From Branchiostoma floridae (lineage: Eukaryota > Chordata > Leptocardii > Amphioxiformes > Branchiostomatidae): a stretch of 64,000 bases of DNA. Shown piece after piece: positions 43,837 through 60,500 of the stretch. The stretch is taken from contig NC_049997.1 in assembly GCF_000003815.2 (NCBI RefSeq), forward strand, positions 3,245,962-3,309,961, given 5' to 3'. Every line of letters starts with the position of its first letter. Positions within the stretch are counted from its first letter, which is position 1. A program made the translations under genes and the position numbers. A model generated the notes under the pieces. That model was not told the origin of the DNA. It ran no database searches and saw only the letters and a program-made list of their open reading frames with translations.

Positions 43837-45996
43837 ATGGCGGCTTTGGAACACGTTTTAATATTAGCCCTTTCCTTCGTTACTTTGACGAATGCGGAAA
43901 GTCCTTGCACGCGATCGCGAGTTTTGCACCACCTGATGAATTGTGAAGATGAAAACCTGACAACTGTACCAACAGGCCTACCAATGGACATGGAAACCCT
44001 GGACCTCAGACGCAACCACATCAAGACTCTCTTGTCGAACAACTTTGTAAATTACTCCAAGTTATCAAACATCTATCTGTCTGGAAACAAAGTGGCAGAA
44101 ATACACCAAGACGCCTTCAATGGGCTTACGAAACTGGAAACCCTACAGCTTTCTGACAATTTTTTACGAACGTTTCCATGTCGCGCGTTGGAAGAGCTAA
44201 CAGCTCTACGTACTCTAAAGCTTGACAACAACACAATTGACTTGATTCCTACAAACTGTACTTTACCAGCGCTTACGTTTATAGACCTATCAAACAACAA
44301 TCTCCAAACTCTACCAGAATCCTTTTGCTCGTTTGGCGAAACAACGAAATTGAGTTTTGACGGAAACCCATGGCGATGTGACGACTCGCTCCTCCCCCTT
44401 CTGCCATGTGAGCAGGTCAGCAGCAGAATAAAGTGTACCGTGCCGTTCAACATCTCCGGTGCCATCTTGAGCACTCTCTCTCCCAACCAGCTTGTACATC
44501 ATGCAGACATCAATGTTACCATCACGGGAAGGTCAACCGTTCTCATCGGCGAGTCGGTGAACTTGTGGTGTAACGTCGAAGGTACACTTCAGGGCACATT
44601 ACCCTGGGGAAAGATACAAGACGCTGATGAGAAAAGTTTCTATCGAGAGGGACATAGCCTTGTACTAAGAGATGTCTCTAAGGCAGATGCAGGGGTATAC
44701 ATCTGCGAAGTCTCCGTTGGCAACACTAAGGCTTGGGGAAACGTAAGACTAAAAGTGCTCGCTGTTGAAACATCCTTCACAACCTTACAACCAACAACGG
44801 TCAAACCCTCCGAGGTGACAGGGACAGTGGCAACAACAAAAGTCCCTATAGCTAAGACATTAACAGGCAAGACAGCAATTCTGATCACTTCAATACCAGA
44901 AGTTAACATGACTGTTCAAAGTCGTGTTGCGGAGGGACAAGACCTAGGTTGGCAGCTGATAGTCATAATCTTCGCAGCGGTCTTCATAGCGTTGATCGTT
45001 GCATGTCTGGCACTGATGGCATGGAGGAAGCTGCGATGGGGAAACAATCTGCAACAGTACGAGGGCCCCATCCCTATCGTCGTGGTGGACTCTCCAACTC
45101 CGCGTGATAACTCTGACGGCTTCTTCATGGAGGAAGAACAACTTTACGAAGGAGAACAATACGGGTCCAGGCAATCTGTAGCCAGCTATGAGTCTTACGG
45201 TAATAAACACAATAATAACGGCGATGATGAGCTTAGCGATGAAGTTGACAACCCTGGGTCGCGAGGACGCTTGGGCGTTACAAGGAGTATTCAAGACGAA
45301 AGATACCCTAAAACGCAGCTTGAAGATGAACAAGAACAGTTGATAGATCGAAGTCAATCGAAGGAAAGAAGGAGTGTAGAAAGTTTGCGGAGCGGTGCCT
45401 CGAGTAGAACGTCTAGAAACTCAAGACGGAGAAATACTCGTCGGAGAGGGGAGCATGATAGTAGAGAGCGGGTACGAAAACGTCCAAGAGACAACGCGGA
45501 CAACGTCTCAGCGAGTACGCAGAGCTCACGACTCTCCACAGCTACTCGATCTAGTCGGGGTTCGAGACGTTCCAGACGGAGACAAAAGCCGTCGTCTCTG
45601 GTTCCTGATGTCCTCGTCACAGAAAATGAAGACAATGAAGGAGAAGATGGCGTTGACGGAAAGGCGGGTACGAAGAAGACGATCGCGTCCGAAAGAGACC
45701 TTTGGAGCAGATGGAATCCACAGAGACAGTCAACGTCTAGAAGGGACGTGAAGAGTAGAGCCGGGGGGAGGGCCATCGCAACCGGAAGGGGCGCGGAAAC
45801 ATTTGATTTGAGGAACGCTACGCCACCGGAACAGGCTATGAACGATTCATTTGAGCTTCAAGACTTTTCAAAAACCCGTCCATCAAAGAAACAAACCTCA
45901 CAGCGCTCCCTATCGGACGGAAAGAGAAGTACAAGACGTCCAAAGCGTGGTCGCGAAGACGATGACAGTGGAAAAGGATCATCTAAAGAAATCTGA
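43837..45996 (+). CDS. LRR-Ig single-pass membrane protein (array gene 1)
   Basis: A 719-residue single-exon frame. Residues 1-20 form a signal peptide. An N-cap with C24 and C36 is followed by five LRRs (about 52-165), an LRR C-cap starting NPWRCDD (177-200), one Ig domain with C245 and C290 (DAGVYIC), a Thr-rich stalk (312-345), a membrane helix (372-396) and a 320-residue Ser/Arg/acidic tail. The ATG has A at -3 and G at +4, a strong start context. Compared with the three downstream paralogues it lacks exactly one LRR, and its C-cap has CDD where they have CDC. The tail has QYEGP just inside the membrane and DSGKGS at 710-715, nine residues before the end of that motif's flanking SSKEI terminus. 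LRR plus one Ig is the plan of AMIGO/LRRC4/LINGO-type adhesion proteins and of the amphioxus LRRIG expansion. Orthology to any named gene is not established. Confidence 0.93.
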   Translation: MAALEHVLILALSFVTLTNAESPCTRSRVLHHLMNCEDENLTTVPTGLPMDMETLDLRRNHIKTLLSNNFVNYSKLSNIYLSGNKVAEIHQDAFNGLTKLETLQLSDNFLRTFPCRALEELTALRTLKLDNNTIDLIPTNCTLPALTFIDLSNNNLQTLPESFCSFGETTKLSFDGNPWRCDDSLLPLLPCEQVSSRIKCTVPFNISGAILSTLSPNQLVHHADINVTITGRSTVLIGESVNLWCNVEGTLQGTLPWGKIQDADEKSFYREGHSLVLRDVSKADAGVYICEVSVGNTKAWGNVRLKVLAVETSFTTLQPTTVKPSEVTGTVATTKVPIAKTLTGKTAILITSIPEVNMTVQSRVAEGQDLGWQLIVIIFAAVFIALIVACLALMAWRKLRWGNNLQQYEGPIPIVVVDSPTPRDNSDGFFMEEEQLYEGEQYGSRQSVASYESYGNKHNNNGDDELSDEVDNPGSRGRLGVTRSIQDERYPKTQLEDEQEQLIDRSQSKERRSVESLRSGASSRTSRNSRRRNTRRRGEHDSRERVRKRPRDNADNVSASTQSSRLSTATRSSRGSRRSRRRQKPSSLVPDVLVTENEDNEGEDGVDGKAGTKKTIASERDLWSRWNPQRQSTSRRDVKSRAGGRAIATGRGAETFDLRNATPPEQAMNDSFELQDFSKTRPSKKQTSQRSLSDGKRSTRRPKRGREDDDSGKGSSKEI

Positions 45997-47198
45997 CAAC
46001 TGTTTAGCTGTAATATTAGGGCAGGGTTAGCCCAGTATTAACCCTTATCTTAGATTTGGTGTCAATCTCCTACGCTCATAAAATTATAACTGATAGTATA
46101 AAACATGCTATAAAGGATATGCAGGGTTTATTTATTAAACAACTTCGTAGATAATATATAATTCTTAATTCGAACATCTTTTTTGTAAAGTGCATTTCAA
46201 GAATATTTTTTGTTACATGGATTATGTTTATCCTAATCTCCAAGCAAATCTGTTGGTGGCAAGGAAGCGTCTAAAATACCAACCAGTATGTATCAATACT
46301 CAAGGCTTTCAAATGAAAGTATCCAACAGGCCTGTCGGACACTGGTTTTCCCTTTGGACATCTACTTGGAGATAAGTCTTGTACAACCAAATCAAGAAAT
46401 TAAATTATTTTATTGTGTATTAATCATAAACGTCAAGTACAAATGTGTAAATTTTCAAGTTTATGTGTGGATTTGATTAGACCAGTTGTCTTTCCTCATT
46501 CAGGCAGGGAAATTCATGGTCTGTAGAGCATGTGTATAGTGACGATGGCAATACTTTAAGAGTTACAATTACATTGTATAGAAAATAAATCTGTACATTT
46601 GTTATATATTGTCACTGTGTTTCTTGTATTATATAATCTGGACTTCTTTCCCAATTTGAGAATGTAATAAAAACTGGAGTCACAAGGAGAATAACTAAAA
46701 TATACTTGAATTCGAATGATTTCATTCATTCGAATAAATAATAATGAATAAAGTTTAATTGCTTCACATATATCACACTTCATCCACATGTCTATATCAT
46801 CTTTTTACAATAATTGTGTCTTTATAACATTTAGTTTTCTACCTTTGTTTTCTTGACGTTTTCTCACTGTTTGTCTACGTTTACAATCACAGCACTTCCC
46901 ACTTACTTAATCAAACCGAATTGGTGGCATTTAGTTTCTATTAGACGAACTTTGTAGGCTCTATATGAAAAAAAAATTGTGTAATTATTACTCCCAGTCA
47001 AATAGCATTGTCTGAACAAGGACTATTTTACTTGGGTCAAGATAAAGTTCAAGAGATGTGAACTTCAAATCTGACTACAATGATACTCGGTGTGAAAGTT
47101 ATGTTGATGAGCTGACTTGTACGTAGAAATTTTTACCACCACAATTTCGTTCGAATATGCTAGAGATTGCAAACTTGATCTCAATGGCCTTTATATAT
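45997..47198 (+). other. 3' UTR and intergenic, genes 1-2
   Basis: AT-rich. AATAAA at 46584-46589 and 46666-46671 are candidate poly(A) signals for gene 1. No other gene seen. Confidence 0.45.
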
Positions 47199-47225
47199 CT
47201 AACACATTTTCTATTTTACACACAG
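47199..47225 (+). promoter_or_regulatory. probable splice acceptor in 5' UTR of array gene 2
   Basis: acattttctattttacacac ag lies 350 bases before the ATG. Downstream sequence becomes noticeably richer in GC, as expected for exon. Confidence 0.45.
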
Positions 47226-47574
47226 CGACTTAGTGTCTGACTGGGAGGTGGACCATCAGCACAACTGGAACGTGAGCACAAGACCACTGACAGGACGTGA
47301 CGCAACATCCGGGATACGTGTGAAGTAGACTGCACCGCAGGACGCTTAGGTGATCCTTCGTGTGCAACCCTCCGACTCCGGGTGTCGCATGTGACTCTTG
47401 CTGTCCTATTTTACCGTGTCAACCTAAAAATCCTCTGAACTCGCGTCTTGTTTTCTCCAAAATTCTTCGTATCCCATTCGAGCTATTCTTCTGGACCTAA
47501 AAAGGTTACATCTCATATTGTACCCCTACGAATTCTATTAGATAAAACGACAAAGTGAATTCTATAGCTCGAAG

Positions 47575-49507
47575 ATGGCGTCCACGTTGGAACTGCTTCT
47601 CTTGACGTTGATACTGATGCTAGCAAAAACTGAACATGTTCACGGAGCTCGCGCATGTAACGAGGACAGTCAAAACATGAGGTGTGCGTGTAGCAGTGAT
47701 TTAGTAGGCGGAGTAACAGTCGACTGTAACGGTGAAAACCTCGAAGAGGTACCCGATGGAATACCTCCAAAAACTAAGATGCTGGAACTTGACCACAACC
47801 GAATAAGTGTTCTACCGACCAGCAGATTCTCGCGTTTTCCGGACCTAACCAGGCTTTCTATTGATGACAACGGACTAAGTGTTATACAAAACGGAGCGTT
47901 CTATGACCTAAGCCGCCTTGATCTACTGTCCCTTCGATACAACGCGTTGACAAGTCTGCCGTGTTCGGAGTTCTCCTCGCTTCCGAATCTGCGAAAACTC
48001 ACAGTTCAGGGTAACCCCATCAGCTCTATACCTGACAACTGCTTCGACAACTTGGTGAACCTGGAGTTACTCTACCTGTCGGACATGCGCCTACGTTCCA
48101 TCAGCCATGTGCCTTTCCAGAACCTTCCTCGCCTCAGATACTTGGACATCTCAGGGAACAGACTTCGCACGTTGCCGCCCGCGTTTTGCAACCAGGGGAT
48201 GAACCTGATCCCCACCATAAGTCTGGACTCCAACCCGTGGGTGTGTGACTGCAGCATGAAGTCAATCCGCCCGTGCAGCAACATCAGTAGCGAAGTCACC
48301 TGCGCCATGCCTAGCACTCTACGCGGTCTCACCATGGGGACGGTCTCGACAGAGCGGATGGCCTGCTCGTCTACTGCCATAACGGTTGACCCGATGGACA
48401 CCGTAGCGACGGTGGGGCAGGCGGTATACATTACGTGCCAAGCGGACGGCGTGTCGCGACAGGACATCACTTGGTGGAAGATGTCCAAGTCCATCGGAGG
48501 TGAGCTGTTTCGGAACGGTCATCTCATCGCGTTTCAAAGCGTTAAACCTGAGAACGCCGGCATATACATCTGCGAGGCTTTAACCTCATGGGCCGTCGCA
48601 TCTCTGGTGGTCCTTCCGGCTCCGCCAACGACTACACCAGCGACGACGACTGCCCAGACAANNNNNNNNNNNNNNNNNNNNNNNNNNNNNNNNNNNNNNN
48701 NNNNNNNNNNNNNNNNNNNNNNNNNNNNNNNNNNNNNNNNNNNNNNNNNNNNNNNNNNNNNATCGCTCAAAGTCCAGCAACTCCATAGCCGTTCGCAAAG
48801 CCCCACGTGCCATCCCAGACCAGGTCGACGAGTCTAACCTCCAAGAAGAAGATGACATTGACCGTTACGTTGAGATGGAAAAAGCACAGCGTCGAAACGG
48901 CAGGAGGCCGGCCGGGTCCAGAGCTAACGCCACGGTGAGAAGGCACGGGTCGAACCTGACCGTAGACAATCCTTCAAAAAGAGGAAGTCGAACCAGCCTG
49001 GCAAGCAGGTCGTCCAACAGACCATCAAGCAGGGCGTCTAGTAGGGCATCCAGCCGGAGCAACACCCTCAGTCGCCGCGACGGAAGGGGTCCGGGCAGGA
49101 GTGGATACACGTCTGCCGATTCAGCAAGGTCCTCGCGCCGCAGAGACGACCTCATGTCCTCCCAGCGGGTTGTCATAGAAGTTGACGACTACGATGAAGA
49201 GGGTGATGATTACGACACCCCAGACGGTACCCCTGTTAATCCGAGGCGCGCCAATATGAGGTCCCCTTTAGTCGGGGTAAAACGTGGCACCATGAGTAGG
49301 TCGAGGAGTTCTGAGAACACGAGGCGAGCGTATAACGGCGATCGGGAAGTGGACATAGACAGCGGGAAGGGGTCGTCTAAGGACATCACCATGCTGACGT
49401 CAGATGAGGACTATAACGGGGTTCATTCAGACGTGCCTTTCTCCAAGGGCAGGAGAAAGAGACCCGTCGACTTTGAAGGACGTAGACATAGCGATATGGT
49501 GTACTAA
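47575..49507 (+). CDS. LRR-Ig single-pass membrane protein (array gene 2), interrupted by an assembly gap
   Basis: The first 362 residues read from a strong ATG (A at -3, G at +4). They comprise a signal peptide (1-24), LRR N-cap (C28, C37, C39, C51), six 24-residue LRRs (about 67-205), LRR C-cap (C224, C226, C234, C243, C264), an Ig domain (C288, WW300-301, C333) and the start of a Thr-rich stalk. A 100-N gap then removes the rest of the stalk and, by homology, the membrane helix. After the gap the frame that continues to TAA at 49507 is the one starting near 48764 (RSKSSNSIAV...), offset by one base. The gap length is therefore a placeholder; a true length divisible by three restores one frame. 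The tail is rich in SRASSR-type repeats and holds DDYDTP (a pYDxP-like SH2 site), an RSPL module, DSGKGS (49358-49375) and ends in MVY. It lies 1.6 kb after gene 1, same strand. Confidence 0.9.
48662..48761. other. assembly gap (100 N) inside array gene 2
   Basis: Exactly 100 N. It falls in the low-complexity Thr codon run of the stalk. The missing part should encode the rest of the stalk and the transmembrane helix, as in the three neighbours. Frames on the two sides differ by one base with the 100-N filler. Confidence 0.99.
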
Positions 49508-50003
49508 AATCGGTGATGTGCTTTTTATATCACATTCAGGCAATGTACATTAGATTCTGTGGGGCAGAATATGGCCAAACATATTTATATAAGTATACAT
49601 ACATACATACATTGTGTATAATATCTGGTGTAGTTGGCATAGACTCAGCAATGTAAACATTTCTTATGAAATGGAGTATTTGTAGATATTGTCCCTTAAG
49701 AAAATTAAACGTTTGTACAAACTATTTTGAGCTTTGCTGTCTTTCAGATGGCACAGGACTAACCATGATGAAAAATACAATTATTCTACGGTTTCTTTAA
49801 CAATAGTCAATATGAATTATTTTTCAATGATATTGTTTGTTTTATGCCTAGTGTAGCGTTAAGTATTAACGATACTTTATCCAGCAGCTAAAGGGTCCTA
49901 AAGTATTTCTGGATAAAACTTGGTAATTTTGAATCATTCTATGATTTAAAGTTGCGTTTAAGCTATTGGGTTTAACAGTGTAGATTACATTATTTATATG
50001 TAT

Positions 50004-50043
<40 letters not shown>

Positions 50044-51393
50044 ACATTCTTTTATAAACATTTTATGCATATGCTTATAAAGCCTTATAGAACAGTTATT
50101 ATTTCTATCATAATTGTAGCATGATATGTAGGTATTTAGAAATATCACAGTATAGATTATTTATCCTCATAGTAGTTAAGCGTGATATCATTGACATAAC
50201 AAGACACAATGGTTCTCAAGGTCATTATGAATTCTAACAAATTGTGCAGGTCGCATGAACAGGCACATACATACCTCACATGTACTTCTCACATCTAACC
50301 AGGACAAGCTGCTACGGAGCCCTATCTTACATCACTTCTTTCTGGCATCAAAAGCTATCGGCCACCTCAAAGCCAAGACCATAGCAAGACCATAGCCACC
50401 ACAAAAACACTTATCAAATGTATAAGAGGACGGCGAAGTGCTCAACTATAACAGGCTGTAACCTAGAGCTGGAATATTTCACCCTTCTATGAATCTTTCT
50501 GATTCTTACACACTTACAGTATAATCCGTTGTGTTTTACAATAGTACTGTAATATATTTTCTTTTGAAGTGGAATAAACTATGGAAGGCTGGTAAACTCT
50601 TCGTTCTTCTTCATTTTGAAGTACCTCAGTGTGTATTTTCTACATCTATAGCTATTTTCAATGATCCCAACTACGCATGCAAAAATTTTATATCTATATG
50701 TTAGTTTCTCTTGTCATGTAATGATATGCATCATTAAACCTATGGGAAAAGCACAACTTGGGCTTTAAGTCCTGACGTAAGTTCTAACACAGGAGATTCC
50801 CATGTTAGTCTACTTAGGTCCATATCCTAGTAACTGTATGACCAAACACAGTTATAACGTGATCGGAAACAGGGAAAATATACACACTGGTCGACTATGA
50901 CATTATACTTAATGTTTTCCGTCGTAGGTGTAAATTAAAAAGGGTCATCACAATTATATACACATATATAGCAAAGGTATTGAGATTAGAACCTTTCCCA
51001 AAATAGCCAGTCAAAAGGCAGGATACGTGTAGCATGCCATTTCAAAATGGCGTGTGGATTACGTTTTTCAATCATTTCATTATGATTCACAAAACTGTCA
51101 TTTAGATTTTAATAAGGAACACATATCAAACATTTTCTGTTCAAGTACATATACTATGAATTAAACTAGATATGACTAATTTTGAACTCATTTGAAATAA
51201 TTGAAAAAGATTTTTCAAATCGTCGTTCGACGTGGCAGTAGAAGTGTCTTTTGTACTGCTATGGATATAGTTTGAATCAAGGTTGATAAACTGAAATGAA
51301 TATGGTTGACAATAAAATAGTCTAATTCTAAACGACAACAACAGAATAGTCAGCTTGGTCAGTGAATATAGTATTTCTAAATGCTGAACTAAC
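49508..51393 (+). other. 3' UTR and intergenic, genes 2-3
   Basis: ATTAAA at 49704-49709, 200 bases after the stop, followed by a GT/T-rich stretch, is the likely gene 2 poly(A) signal. AATAAA at 50574 is an alternative. A (TA)n run lies at 50008-50038. No gene otherwise. Confidence 0.5.
50008..50038. repeat. (TA)n microsatellite
   Basis: Uninterrupted alternating TA for about 30 bases. Confidence 0.95.
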
Positions 51394-51428
51394 ATTCTCT
51401 TTTGTTACTTATGTTGAAGATGTTGCAG
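51394..51428 (+). promoter_or_regulatory. possible splice acceptor in 5' UTR of array gene 3
   Basis: tctcttttgttacttatg...gatgttgcag, about 420 bases before the ATG. The pyrimidine tract is weaker than in genes 1 and 2. GC content rises after it. Confidence 0.3.
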
Positions 51429-51846
51429 TTGTACCAAGTGACCTACATTATCGCAGGAACCTGTGACGACACCAAGTTTTGTGCACGGAAACCTCTGACA
51501 TCAAAGGTCACCTGCGGTGGAAGCTAAACTTCGCGGGTTGCCTAGGTGACGGCTTCTCTATGTACTTTCGTTTTTCATTGGTGAAATCTCCATTTTCGGT
51601 GACAGCATGACAAGACCTTTCAACCTTGAACTTTAACCCCAAGAACATTCGAACCTACTTTCACCTCTGTGCGTCTATTGTCTATGTTGGTGGCTCGTCC
51701 GTCTTACTCCGCCGTCTGTACTGGGTGGCTTCGGTGAATTTCGAACTCACGTGGTGGCGTCTCTCTCATGTTTCTCTAAGGATTACAGACATTCTAACAT
51801 TTGGTCTACGTAGTAGATTAAATCAAAGTTGGTTATCTACTTGAAA

Positions 51847-53727
51847 ATGCATTCGTCGATTTACAGACGTTTAATTCTGAATGCGACCGTTATTATGGTC
51901 CTAGCCATTCAAGTATACAGTGCAGAATTGTGTGTCGAAGTGAATCAAAGTTTAACGATAAACTATACGTGCTCGCTATCTGAACCTCAAAGAGGAGTTT
52001 ATTGCGAAAATCAGAACATTTCCACGATGCCCATCGGAATACCAAACGATACTTGCATACTCACTCTCCAAGGAAACATGATACGTACCCTATATGCAAG
52101 GGATTTTTCTGGGTTTTGGAACTTAGAGTATCTAAATTTGTCTAGAAACCGACTGGAAAAGATTGAAATTGGTACTTTTTACGACCTGGTGAGACTCAAG
52201 GTTTTGGATCTGTCACAAAATCGCCTCGAGTCGGTACCATGTGCAGAGTTTCGGAAATTAGCAAACCTCCGGATCTTAGATCTTAGTGGGAATCCCATAA
52301 CTCTTCTTCCAAGGAACTGTTTCAAATATCTCGATAAACTAGAAGAGCTGTACCTGTCAAATACGAGACTGAGCAACGTAAGGGTAGGCGATTTCAGACA
52401 GCTCGGTAGCTTGGCCCTCCTTGATCTCTCACGTAACCGACTCCGTACGTTACCAGCGGGGTTTTGCCGAGGAACAGACGGTATCGTACCGAGGATAGAA
52501 CTGAGCGGTAACCCATGGCTGTGCGACTGCACCATGAAACCACTACAGCGATGTCCTGACATAGCCGGGAAGATCACATGCACCATGCCGAGTAAACTGC
52601 GTGGCCTGGCGGCAAAATTTCTCTCACCGACTTTACTGACTTGCTACAACGTTAAGGTTAGAATCCAACCCGTGGATACGATGGCCACAGTGAACAGCAG
52701 TGTCACCATAACATGTGATGTCATAGAAGCATCGCCTGAGCTTACAGACGTTGAGTTTCGGTGGTGGAAAATAACAAAGGATGGCAAACTCGGAGAAAGT
52801 ATACTAGGCAAAAAATTGAACTTTCCAAACGTACAGGTCGGCAACGCGGGGAACTACAACTGCGAGGCCGTGGATAGAAGGAGAACATTTTCCGTCTCTG
52901 GGATAACAACGCTACAAGTGGTTCCAGTTCAAGTTACAGACTCCACGCAAAGTACAGCAGCTGTAATGCCAAGCACTACTTCAGCACGTACTACACCACC
53001 ACCACAAACAACAACAACACTGACCAAGGGGAAGAAAGTACCGGTTATAGTTGAAACGATAACGACAAGGCAAGCGGTTTTGGGACAACCAGACTTCTCG
53101 GTCTACCTGAAGGGTGCGGTATCTATAGGGGCAACTCTTCTGGTTCTAATCATCGTGTCCACTTGTGTGTTTTGCTACTGGAAGAGGAGACAACGCTTTG
53201 AGGGTCAGAACCTACGTATACAACACAAAACATGTAACGAAGAAGTCAAAGATGAACACAGTGGCATTCATATTCACAACAAAACCACAAAATCGAAGAA
53301 AGATAATCACAAAAGGCGTGCTAACACTACAGTCCGGGACCATCGTAGGAGCCAGTCAAAGGGAAGAGTTAAAAGACGAAGTCAAAATTCCACAAACCAT
53401 GACGGCAAAAACTTCGCAAACGGTAAAAGTCCCCCCGTTAGCAAATCACCAAAGCCACCCAACGGTTACAAAGTGAAAAGTGACATAAAAACAATTGAGA
53501 TGGCCACCGTGAACCCAGCTCGTGCAAGGACGAGGTCTCCCTTACTCCAACCAAAAAGACCACAACACCTCAACCTGGAGATAGGCCATGACACGGATGA
53601 CAGCGGAAAAGGATCATGGGAAGACAACGCAATCGCATCCGGGACCTCAGCCAGGAGCCATAGACCCACAAGTTCAAAGATCAAGAAGTCAAAGGTTGAA
53701 TTTCGAGATGAGGAGTACTACGTATAG
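51847..53727 (+). CDS. LRR-Ig single-pass membrane protein (array gene 3)
   Basis: I place the start at the ATG at 51847 (A at -3). The open frame extends upstream only through TTG codons, and this ATG leads directly into a signal peptide (1-26). The product is 626 residues: LRR N-cap (C29, C42, C53), six LRRs (about 71-207), C-cap starting NPWLCDC (223-267), Ig domain (C290, WW306-307, C339), a Thr/Pro stalk (365-395), a membrane helix (about 422-444) and a basic tail. The tail has RFEGQ at the membrane (cognate of YEGP), an RSPL module (563-566), DSGKGS (585-590, DNA 53599-53616) and the C-terminus DEEYYV. It is closest to gene 2 by its C-cap, Ig start and tail modules. Ligand and partner are unknown. 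Confidence 0.93.
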   Translation: MHSSIYRRLILNATVIMVLAIQVYSAELCVEVNQSLTINYTCSLSEPQRGVYCENQNISTMPIGIPNDTCILTLQGNMIRTLYARDFSGFWNLEYLNLSRNRLEKIEIGTFYDLVRLKVLDLSQNRLESVPCAEFRKLANLRILDLSGNPITLLPRNCFKYLDKLEELYLSNTRLSNVRVGDFRQLGSLALLDLSRNRLRTLPAGFCRGTDGIVPRIELSGNPWLCDCTMKPLQRCPDIAGKITCTMPSKLRGLAAKFLSPTLLTCYNVKVRIQPVDTMATVNSSVTITCDVIEASPELTDVEFRWWKITKDGKLGESILGKKLNFPNVQVGNAGNYNCEAVDRRRTFSVSGITTLQVVPVQVTDSTQSTAAVMPSTTSARTTPPPQTTTTLTKGKKVPVIVETITTRQAVLGQPDFSVYLKGAVSIGATLLVLIIVSTCVFCYWKRRQRFEGQNLRIQHKTCNEEVKDEHSGIHIHNKTTKSKKDNHKRRANTTVRDHRRSQSKGRVKRRSQNSTNHDGKNFANGKSPPVSKSPKPPNGYKVKSDIKTIEMATVNPARARTRSPLLQPKRPQHLNLEIGHDTDDSGKGSWEDNAIASGTSARSHRPTSSKIKKSKVEFRDEEYYV

Positions 53728-58592: not shown

Positions 58593-60500
58593 ATGAAAAT
58601 GGCGCCGCCTACAATTTACGTCATCACTTACGTCATCATCGCAGTTCTGGTGTCTGAGGCGGTCATGCGCACTGAAGCGCTCCGAGCGTGCGGGCGGTGG
58701 CTGGTGTGCGACTGCGACCCTACCGTCAACGCCGTGCACTGCAACATGTTCAATCTCAACGTCATGCCAGCCGGGATACCAGCTTCCACCATCATCTTGG
58801 ACCTATCCAACAACAGGATACCCACAACAGCCAATCAGTTTGCCAACTTCTACCGTTTGCGGTATTTGGATTTCAGCAGTAACGGTTTGCAGACCATCGC
58901 AGGTGGCACGTTCAACAACCTGAACCAGCTGGAGCTGTTGGATCTTTCCGACAACCTGTTCGTCAACATCCCTTGTGGAATATTGAGTTTGTTTCCAAAA
59001 CTTCGCATTTTTAAGTTCTCGGGGAATCCTGTCTCGTCTTTCCCCGGTAACTGTTTCATGGGAATGAAGGCGATCCAACAACTCGATCTCTCGCGGATGA
59101 AGCTAGCGACTGTTAGCGAAGACGCGTTCCAGTGGGTACCGACACTCAACCAGTTAGACATTTCCAGAAACCAGCTGCAAACGCTGAGCGCTGGATTCTG
59201 TCCAAACGGCGGAAACCTTATCGAAACGATGCAGCTGTATGGTAACCCGTGGCTGTGCGACTGTAACCTGCAACAGATCCAGCGCTGCACGAACATCACG
59301 CGCAACATACGCTGTGCAGTGCCGAGGATGTTGCGAGGGCTCGCCGCCGACATACTTCTACAGTTCGCGCCTGACCGACTCGTGTGTCCGGCTGCACCCA
59401 TGTCCATCAACCTGTCGTCCTCTGACGTCACTGCTTACGTAGGAGACTCCCTGAGTATAACCTGTAACTCACCCGGAGTGCGGAGCGACAAGATCACGTG
59501 GCTAAAGATGACGGGTGACGTAAGAAGGGCCCCGACAAGATCCGTCCAATCAGGACCGATCTTGCCGTTCGCGCGCGTCCAATTGGTTGATGGCGGGACG
59601 TACATTTGTGAAGCAGACAGTAACGCCTGGGCGGTGCTGACTCTTCGTGTTCTCCGGCCACTCCCGACCACTACAACTCTCCCGATGATGACAACGTTGC
59701 CCAACACGACGGCACAGTCAGGAACTACAACCGGCCTACCGCCTGCTGTTGCTACAACTGTGACAACGACTGTGTTAACTACAACGGGGAATTTATTCTC
59801 TTTGTCAGGTCTAGCTGTACAGAGTGGCGGAGACAAACCGTTTGACTGGACGCTGCTTATAATCGCAGTATCAGCGGCAGCGTTTACAGTTGTGGTGGTG
59901 GGTGTCGTGTCCGCGGTGGTGTACTGTATCTGGAAACGGTCGCGCTGGAAAAGGAGGCTAAAGACATACGAAGGCCCTTCGCCCATGTCGGAGCTTGCAG
60001 CGTTTGATCACCTGTTCACAGGACACGACAGCGGGAGTCAGAACTCTACACCCTCAAGTGGTTACGACTCCTCCCCGCTGAACCCGGACAGTGCGAGGAG
60101 CAGACCCTCCTCCCCTGCCGTTCGACAACAGACGCCGCCCGCTGTTCCGTACGTCAACAGGCACAAGCGTAGACCAAGCAAAGCAGGCGACGCCGCTGCA
60201 ACACAGGATGCGTCAGGTGACGTCCCTGACGCTCCGACATCACCCCGTTCTAACGACAGACCGACGTCGCCTGTCTCACCGAGAAGCATCCGGGGACTGG
60301 CCTATCGCCCGAACAGTGCCGGGAGCACGGGCAGCAACAGGAGAACCGGAACCGGAAATACTAAGACTCTAAGGCGAACAGCTCGTCGGGATAAGGGGAC
60401 ACGGCCGGCTAGGAAAGAGGGAGAAAGTATCCCGCTGAGGACGAGGGGGTCGAAGGCTTCTCTTGGCCTCACTGGCGGAGACGAGGAACATTACGTCTGA
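58593..60500 (+). CDS. LRR-Ig single-pass membrane protein (array gene 4)
   Basis: A 635-residue single-exon frame. Two in-frame ATGs lie close together (58593 and 58599), and the second has the better context; either gives a signal peptide ending near 30. An N-cap (C33, C39, C41, C50), six LRRs (about 65-203), C-cap (C222, C224, C232, C241, C265), Ig domain (C291, W303, C339) and a long Thr-rich, mucin-like stalk (358-400) follow. A membrane helix lies at 419-446. The tail begins with RLKTYEGP and has many SP/TP sites (proline-directed kinase type), HDSGSQNS (a looser DSG element, 478-485) and the C-terminus DEEHYV, matching gene 3. It has no exact DSGKGS. GC content in the coding region is clearly higher than in genes 1 and 3. 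It sits 4.9 kb after gene 3, same strand. Confidence 0.93.
   Translation: MKMAPPTIYVITYVIIAVLVSEAVMRTEALRACGRWLVCDCDPTVNAVHCNMFNLNVMPAGIPASTIILDLSNNRIPTTANQFANFYRLRYLDFSSNGLQTIAGGTFNNLNQLELLDLSDNLFVNIPCGILSLFPKLRIFKFSGNPVSSFPGNCFMGMKAIQQLDLSRMKLATVSEDAFQWVPTLNQLDISRNQLQTLSAGFCPNGGNLIETMQLYGNPWLCDCNLQQIQRCTNITRNIRCAVPRMLRGLAADILLQFAPDRLVCPAAPMSINLSSSDVTAYVGDSLSITCNSPGVRSDKITWLKMTGDVRRAPTRSVQSGPILPFARVQLVDGGTYICEADSNAWAVLTLRVLRPLPTTTTLPMMTTLPNTTAQSGTTTGLPPAVATTVTTTVLTTTGNLFSLSGLAVQSGGDKPFDWTLLIIAVSAAAFTVVVVGVVSAVVYCIWKRSRWKRRLKTYEGPSPMSELAAFDHLFTGHDSGSQNSTPSSGYDSSPLNPDSARSRPSSPAVRQQTPPAVPYVNRHKRRPSKAGDAAATQDASGDVPDAPTSPRSNDRPTSPVSPRSIRGLAYRPNSAGSTGSNRRTGTGNTKTLRRTARRDKGTRPARKEGESIPLRTRGSKASLGLTGGDEEHYV

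Follow-up and report, generated by a model that had tools for sequence, protein, structure and literature searches.

The cytoplasmic tails of three tandemly arranged receptors of the amphioxus Branchiostoma floridae contain the same hexapeptide, DSGKGS. The genes are located in a 64-kb stretch of genomic DNA (here termed the window) on contig C19, the right-hand third of which comprises four genes on the + strand, each consisting of a single exon and coding for a type I receptor with leucine-rich repeats (LRRs) and an immunoglobulin (Ig) domain (genes 1 to 4). DSGKGS is genuinely shared by genes 1, 2, and 3, which are distant paralogues; it is identical to a proven degron and occurs in a setting that fits such a function. 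As the leading explanation, to which we assign about an even chance of being correct, we propose that DSGKGS serves as a beta-TrCP phosphodegron of the Snail/prolactin receptor kind in these three anciently separated LRR-Ig receptors.

RESULTS

One hexapeptide is common to the tails of genes 1 to 3

Translation confirmed DSGKGS at all three sites where it had been reported by an earlier reading of the sequence (the original prediction), in each case in frame and within a long open frame (Table 1). It was the sole 6-mer common to the tails of genes 1 to 3, and no 7-mer was common to them. In 20,000 residue shuffles of the three tails, which preserve composition and not repeat structure, a 6-mer common to all three was never obtained (0/20,000), and a common 5-mer was obtained in only 6/20,000. 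The bare pattern DSG..[ST], by itself, was not rare and appeared in 5.1% (tail 1), 6.0% (tail 2), and 0.9% (tail 3) of the shuffles. When all six frames of the window were scanned for DSGx2-3[ST], seven matches were obtained, three of which were DSGKGS. Throughout the genome (513 Mb in 431 contigs), a loose DNA pattern, which also lets in some non-serine codons, was found at background level (117 + 97 matches [214] versus 116 + 104 [220] in the reversed control). The signal is thus the same peptide in distant related genes, not the motif by itself.

The D-S-G-x(2-3)-S pattern of beta-TrCP degrons is present in genes 1 to 3 in the form of DSGKGS, and in gene 4 only with three intervening residues. 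As originally predicted, the latter gene has only the looser DSGSQNS, starting at 60027, which may be a chance occurrence, to judge from shuffles of its tail. The gene 4 tail also contains SSGYDSS (60054-60074), likewise near the membrane, which resembles the DEPTOR degron SSGYFSS in the substrate table of PMC10317156, but is within chance expectation. DSGSQNS and SSGYDSS were together considered as degrons of gene 4 and rejected, because 32% of shuffles contained one or more such broad motifs and 5% contained two or more.

Tails and codons of the motif have diverged unevenly

In the ectodomain, gene 1 was 30 to 32% identical to the other three genes, and identity among genes 2, 3, and 4 was 35 to 39%; the tails were 17 to 36% identical over aligned positions. 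The original description of the tails as almost unalignable proved too strong. Those of genes 2 and 3 aligned with 37% identity over 59 residues (E = 0.001), from just before a common NPxRAxxRSPLxxxKR block through DSGKGS; genes 3 and 4 share the ending DEE[YH]YV, and genes 1 and 4 share the tetrapeptide YEGP. The DEE[YH]YV ends could represent PDZ-binding C termini, whereas gene 1 ends with SKEI and gene 2 with DMVY. YEGP is located just inside the membrane in both gene 1 (45058-45069) and gene 4 (59967-59978), and the juxtamembrane sequence of gene 3 is FEGQ.

Within DSGKGS, only 1/6 codons of gene 2 is identical to gene 1 and 2/6 are identical to gene 3. Genes 1 and 3 are identical in 5/6 codons and 17/18 nucleotides (P = 0.008 against a codon-usage null, as one of three comparisons and uncorrected). 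Synonymous codon differences had previously been read as a sign of selection on the peptide, a reading that holds for gene 2 but not for the pair formed by genes 1 and 3. Because the codons of that pair are nearly identical, selection of this kind is attested mainly by gene 2. The likeness of genes 1 and 3 spans a stretch of 22 nucleotides (GATGACAGYGGAAAAGGATCAT) with a single mismatch (45961-45982 and 53596-53617, respectively) in genes whose ectodomains are only ∼30% identical, and a short DNA exchange or conversion tract between them is possible.

Genes 2 to 4 form a clear group within a large receptor repertoire

When gene 3 was used as the query in genome searches, gene 2 (E = 5.4e-69) and gene 4 (4.4e-63) were retrieved far above the best match elsewhere (1.6e-29, among the matches listed), so that genes 2, 3, and 4 constitute a clear group. 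Judged from these searches, the kinship of gene 1 to the cluster is the weakest: its best piece with the gene 3 query (6.4e-18) ranked below many genes outside the cluster, and gene 1 as the query matched gene 4 (1.7e-28), followed by a gene on contig C2 (5.7e-26) and then gene 2 (6.5e-25). After summing of split pieces, cluster genes ranked first in both query directions, with the two pieces of gene 1 slightly above outside genes. On contig C19, matches to genes 1 and 3 fell on the four genes only, among the matches listed.

This genome contains many LRR receptor genes, with at least 80 matches listed for gene 1 and at least 117 for gene 3. A comparison of amphioxus LRR-Ig tails, which had been proposed as a check of the original prediction, was run on some of these matches and thereby covered a subset of paralogues from a single genome. 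It comprised 49 distinct LRR open frames from elsewhere in the genome (56 loci, 7 of which were merged as duplicates) with 10,388 tail residues; in 44 frames the LRRs were followed by a hydrophobic segment, 4 frames ran off the locus, and the Ig domain was checked for some. The motif was present in 3/4 cluster genes, and DSGx2-3[ST] was present in 0/49 frames elsewhere, where ∼1.2 tails were expected from shuffling and the chance of finding none was 0.30. DSGKGS was therefore seen only in this cluster, and its absence from the 49 other frames says little about avoidance. When tail 2 was searched against the genome, its own locus was the only match; because even tails 1 and 3 escaped detection, the search had no power to reveal further members.

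Other LRR receptor tails of this genome contained repeated short motifs, among them YENDDE (6/30 tails of at least 150 residues), YENDNE (5/30), DHQYED (8/30), and QTGQGQ (10/30). YEN fits the pYxN pattern bound by the Grb2 SH2 domain, and the YEN arrays are possible Grb2 sites, representing a tail logic other than that of the cluster studied here.

DSGKGS lies in a predicted unfolded tail with a plausible kinase context

The tails of genes 1, 2, and 3 comprise 324, 247, and 183 residues, respectively, and the tails of the cluster are very basic and serine rich. An AlphaFold2 model of gene 3, built on a 4-row alignment (mean predicted local distance difference test score [pLDDT], 59.7; predicted template modeling score, 0.42), exhibited folded LRR and Ig parts and a helix at residues 427 to 451. 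Residues 451 to 626 had a pLDDT of <50, with a mean of 30 for residues 581 to 590. In agreement with the model, disorder-promoting residues accounted for 58 to 65% of the four tails. The cytosolic location of the motif, which the original prediction had assumed from topology, was supported by the model for gene 3, shallow as its alignment is, and by hydropathy for gene 1; for genes 1 and 4, tail topology was deduced from hydropathy only. Placement of the motif in an unfolded, cytosolic segment is thus supported at the level of prediction.

An acidic residue at position +3 from a serine constitutes a CK2 consensus. The residue at +3 from the last serine of DSGKGS is E in gene 1 and D in genes 2 and 3. 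The two serines of the motif have the S-GKG-S spacing of a primed GSK3 site (consensus S-x3/4-pS; PMC5954166), with a plausible priming context in 3/3 genes. For Snail, PMC5954166 describes GSK3 phosphorylation of EDS96GKGS after CK1 priming at Ser104. Since a Snail-type downstream serine is absent from the amphioxus genes, priming would here fall on the last serine of DSGKGS itself.

These features suggest the following sequence of events. An acidophilic kinase such as CK2 would phosphorylate the last serine, and GSK3, as its consensus implies, could then act on the first serine, at position -4 relative to the primed one. The Skp1-cullin-F-box (SCF) ligase with beta-TrCP would bind D-pS-G-K-G-pS and ubiquitinate the tail, upon which receptors would be removed and degraded. 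We tentatively extend this proposal to a more specific one, which we think could be true but would not presume: that this small, old amphioxus LRR-Ig cluster has its own SCF-beta-TrCP level control, by a Snail-identical degron that is self-primed on its last serine and was gained independently of the vertebrate cytokine receptor degrons.

A putative reader of the motif is encoded in the same genome

The beta-TrCP D domain (PF12125) had one match in the genome (E = 1.9e-23), and the best PDB matches of the adjoining F-box exon were FBXW11 and FBXW1A. To place the contact residues of beta-TrCP in the WD40 exons, we used a numbering offset of 36 residues, which we take to apply here. Of the 15 contact residues given in PMC6499770, the 6 that were checkable (Tyr271, Arg285, Ser309, Leu311, Ser325, and Leu351) had the same letter in all cases (6/6); Leu351, in the third exon, was located by counting onward from the preceding exon, and the other 9 residues are outside the exons examined. 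A beta-TrCP that would be able to read DSGKGS thus appears to be present in the same organism.

Gene models of the receptor cluster

LRRs, an Ig domain, and a single transmembrane (TM) segment were identified by Pfam, hydropathy, and the gene 3 model, with the TM segment of gene 2 expected within an assembly gap. Pfam matches were LRR_8 (3e-19) and Ig_3 (4e-7) for gene 1, LRR_8 (4e-37) and Ig_3 (3e-9) for the first part of gene 2, and LRR_8 (1.5e-23) and Ig_3 (4e-9) for gene 4. Gene 3, with its ATG at 51847, matched LRR_8 (8e-30), V-set_CD47 above its cutoff, and Ig_3 (8e-6) below the Pfam cutoff. No signaling domain above the Pfam cutoff was found in the tails of the four genes, and no Pfam family was found for the gene 2 tail. 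The gap of 100 N (48662-48761) falls where the TM segment of gene 2 is expected, and its true length matters for the gene model. The two parts of gene 2 are in different frames across the gap, and its tail was assigned by position and tail similarity, without a continuous frame.

TABLE 1 Positions of the receptor genes, DSGKGS motifs, and shared tail elements within the window
Feature	Position	Strand	Basis or remark
DSGKGS of gene 1, context REDDDSGKGSSKEI, 10 residues from C terminus	45964..45981	+	Translation
DSGKGS of gene 2, context REVDIDSGKGSSKDI	49358..49375	+	Translation
DSGKGS of gene 3, context HDTDDSGKGSWEDN, residues 585-590	53599..53616	+	Translation
DSGSQNS of gene 4, DSGx3S form near membrane	60027..60047	+	DSGx2-3[ST] in 5.4% of this tail's shuffles
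NPRRANMRSPLVGVKR, gene 2 tail block common with gene 3	49238..49285	+	Tail comparison
NPARARTRSPLLQPKR, gene 3 tail block common with gene 2	53512..53559	+	Tail comparison
DEEYYV, C terminus of gene 3	53707..53724	+	5/6 identical to gene 4 DEEHYV
DEEHYV, C terminus of gene 4	60480..60497	+	Tail comparison
Gene 1, 719 residues: LRRs, one Ig domain, TM segment ∼44956-45018, 324-residue tail	43837..45996	+	Open frame, Pfam, hydropathy
Gene 2: LRR-Ig ectodomain 47575-48661 and tail 48764-49507	47575..49507	+	Open frames, Pfam
Gene 3, 626 residues: LRRs, Ig domain, TM helix ∼53125-53199, unfolded tail (predicted)	51847..53727	+	Open frame, Pfam, AlphaFold2
Gene 4, 635 residues, LRR-Ig receptor without DSGKGS	58593..60500	+	Open frame, Pfam

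DISCUSSION

Alternative explanations for the shared peptide

Besides a degron, the same kinases could control docking or trafficking through DSGKGS independently of any reading by beta-TrCP, for instance by a CK2/GSK3 switch for membrane binding, endocytosis, or adaptor contact. The acidic +3 residue in 3/3 genes together with the GSK3 spacing would be expected for such a switch, the very basic and serine-rich composition of the tails is consistent with it, and the second GSK3 motif of Snail governs localization (PMC5954166). A CK2/GSK3 site by itself, however, needs neither D nor G, whereas 3/3 genes retain D, S, G, and the last S of the beta-TrCP consensus, and we consider this explanation rather unlikely. 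Less probable still is that DSGKGS merely reflects common descent or recent DNA exchange and has no function of its own, with the shared codons of genes 1 and 3 marking a short conversion tract. Their 17/18 identical nucleotides point in this direction, and other pieces of the tails have survived too, in genes 2/3 and 3/4. Gene 2, on the other hand, keeps the peptide although just 1/6 of its codons matches gene 1 and 2/6 match gene 3, and identity among the tails is low (17 to 36% over aligned positions).

Chance is a far weaker candidate. Tails rich in serine, aspartate, and glycine may yield DSGxxS often, as the frequency of 0.9 to 6% per tail in shuffles and the background level of the genome-wide pattern illustrate, but it is very improbable that they would yield the same six residues in three tails, which no shuffle reproduced. 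S-G-x-G is a glycosaminoglycan attachment pattern, and the SGKG part of the motif fits it. In genes 1 and 3, however, only one strong hydrophobic segment comes after the Ig domain, and the motif is beyond it, on the side where the basic residues are found; attachment of a glycosaminoglycan is hardly conceivable.

Several observations weigh against DSGKGS being a beta-TrCP degron. Gene 4 is devoid of it even though its ectodomain is nearer to those of genes 2 and 3 than that of gene 1 is. Because genes 1 and 3 encode the motif with almost the same codons, they perhaps do not count as independent witnesses. With an alignment of 4 rows, low pLDDT partly reflects lack of data and is weak evidence of disorder. 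The position of Snail Ser104 is occupied by I, I, and N in genes 1 to 3, leaving no downstream priming serine. In addition, a beta-TrCP degron wants an acceptor lysine at a workable upstream distance, and lysines are distributed unevenly: the nearest upstream lysines of genes 1, 3, and 2 are found at -7, -15, and -26, respectively, and gene 2 has none between this last position and the lysine of the motif itself.

Implications

The identity of DSGKGS with a proven degron provides a specific hypothesis on the action of one receptor cluster in whose tails no signaling domain scored above the Pfam cutoff: the motif may set the lifetime of these receptors. If this is true, beta-TrCP control of surface receptors would have arisen more than once in chordates; PMC3210801 assigns such control to the period when IFNAR1 and IL-10R1 diversified. 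Under the more specific proposal above, GSK3 activity would tune the LRR-Ig receptors jointly with beta-catenin and Snail. A literature search found no report of DSGKGS in amphioxus LRR-Ig receptors; it was weak, in that it covered few subscription journals and missed letters inside longer strings. The motif is accordingly presented as a new candidate case of a known motif type.

Comparison with known systems

In architecture, the four receptors resemble AMIGO, kekkon/LRRC24, and NGL proteins, which likewise consist of LRRs, one Ig domain, one TM segment, and a tail. Sequence matches to the PDB were spread over many LRR proteins (345 distinct ones, the best 60 of 345 being listed). Lrrc24 is called the closest mammalian orthologue of the kekkons in PMC2235866.

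With regard to the motif, the closest counterpart is SNAI1, whose degron has identical DSGKGS letters directly preceded by acidic residues (SDEDSGKGSQ, as tabulated among reported beta-TrCP substrates in PMC10317156). Snail differs in being a transcription factor and in its priming by CK1 at Ser104, a serine without a counterpart in the amphioxus genes. The original prediction had regarded lysine after DSG as atypical for a degron. This objection falls away, since the same residue is found in SNAI1 and the PRLR and GHR entries of the same table (PDTDSGRGSC and KDGDSGRTSC) are also basic there. The degron explanation is plausible and has more support than was originally assumed.

The tails of PRLR and GHR, which are class I cytokine receptors, are similar to those of the amphioxus genes in that a basic residue follows DSG in DSGRGS and DSGRTS; they belong to vertebrate receptors, and their ectodomains are unrelated to those of LRR-Ig receptors. 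IFNAR1 and EPOR are further entries of the PMC10317156 table and show, together with PRLR and GHR, that such degrons are used by receptor tails. The DSGXXS degrons of GHR and PRLR are described as well characterized in PMC7444064. Ser349 of PRLR is listed as a GSK3 site in PMC5954166, where its entry reports no priming.

Immune receptor tails read by beta-TrCP are likewise known from IFNAR1 and IL-10R1, the latter with DSGFGS (PMC3210801). According to the authors of that article, no DSG motif was seen in the B. floridae or Ciona class II cytokine receptor, so that a degron of the amphioxus LRR-Ig receptors would be separate in origin. Outside the vertebrates, the pathway operates in a related setting: sea urchin Yan/Tel, with the motif DSGHSS and again no obvious priming site, is degraded via GSK3 and beta-TrCP (PMC6160229). 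NRF of Branchiostoma japonicum retains DSGIS (PMC11989980).

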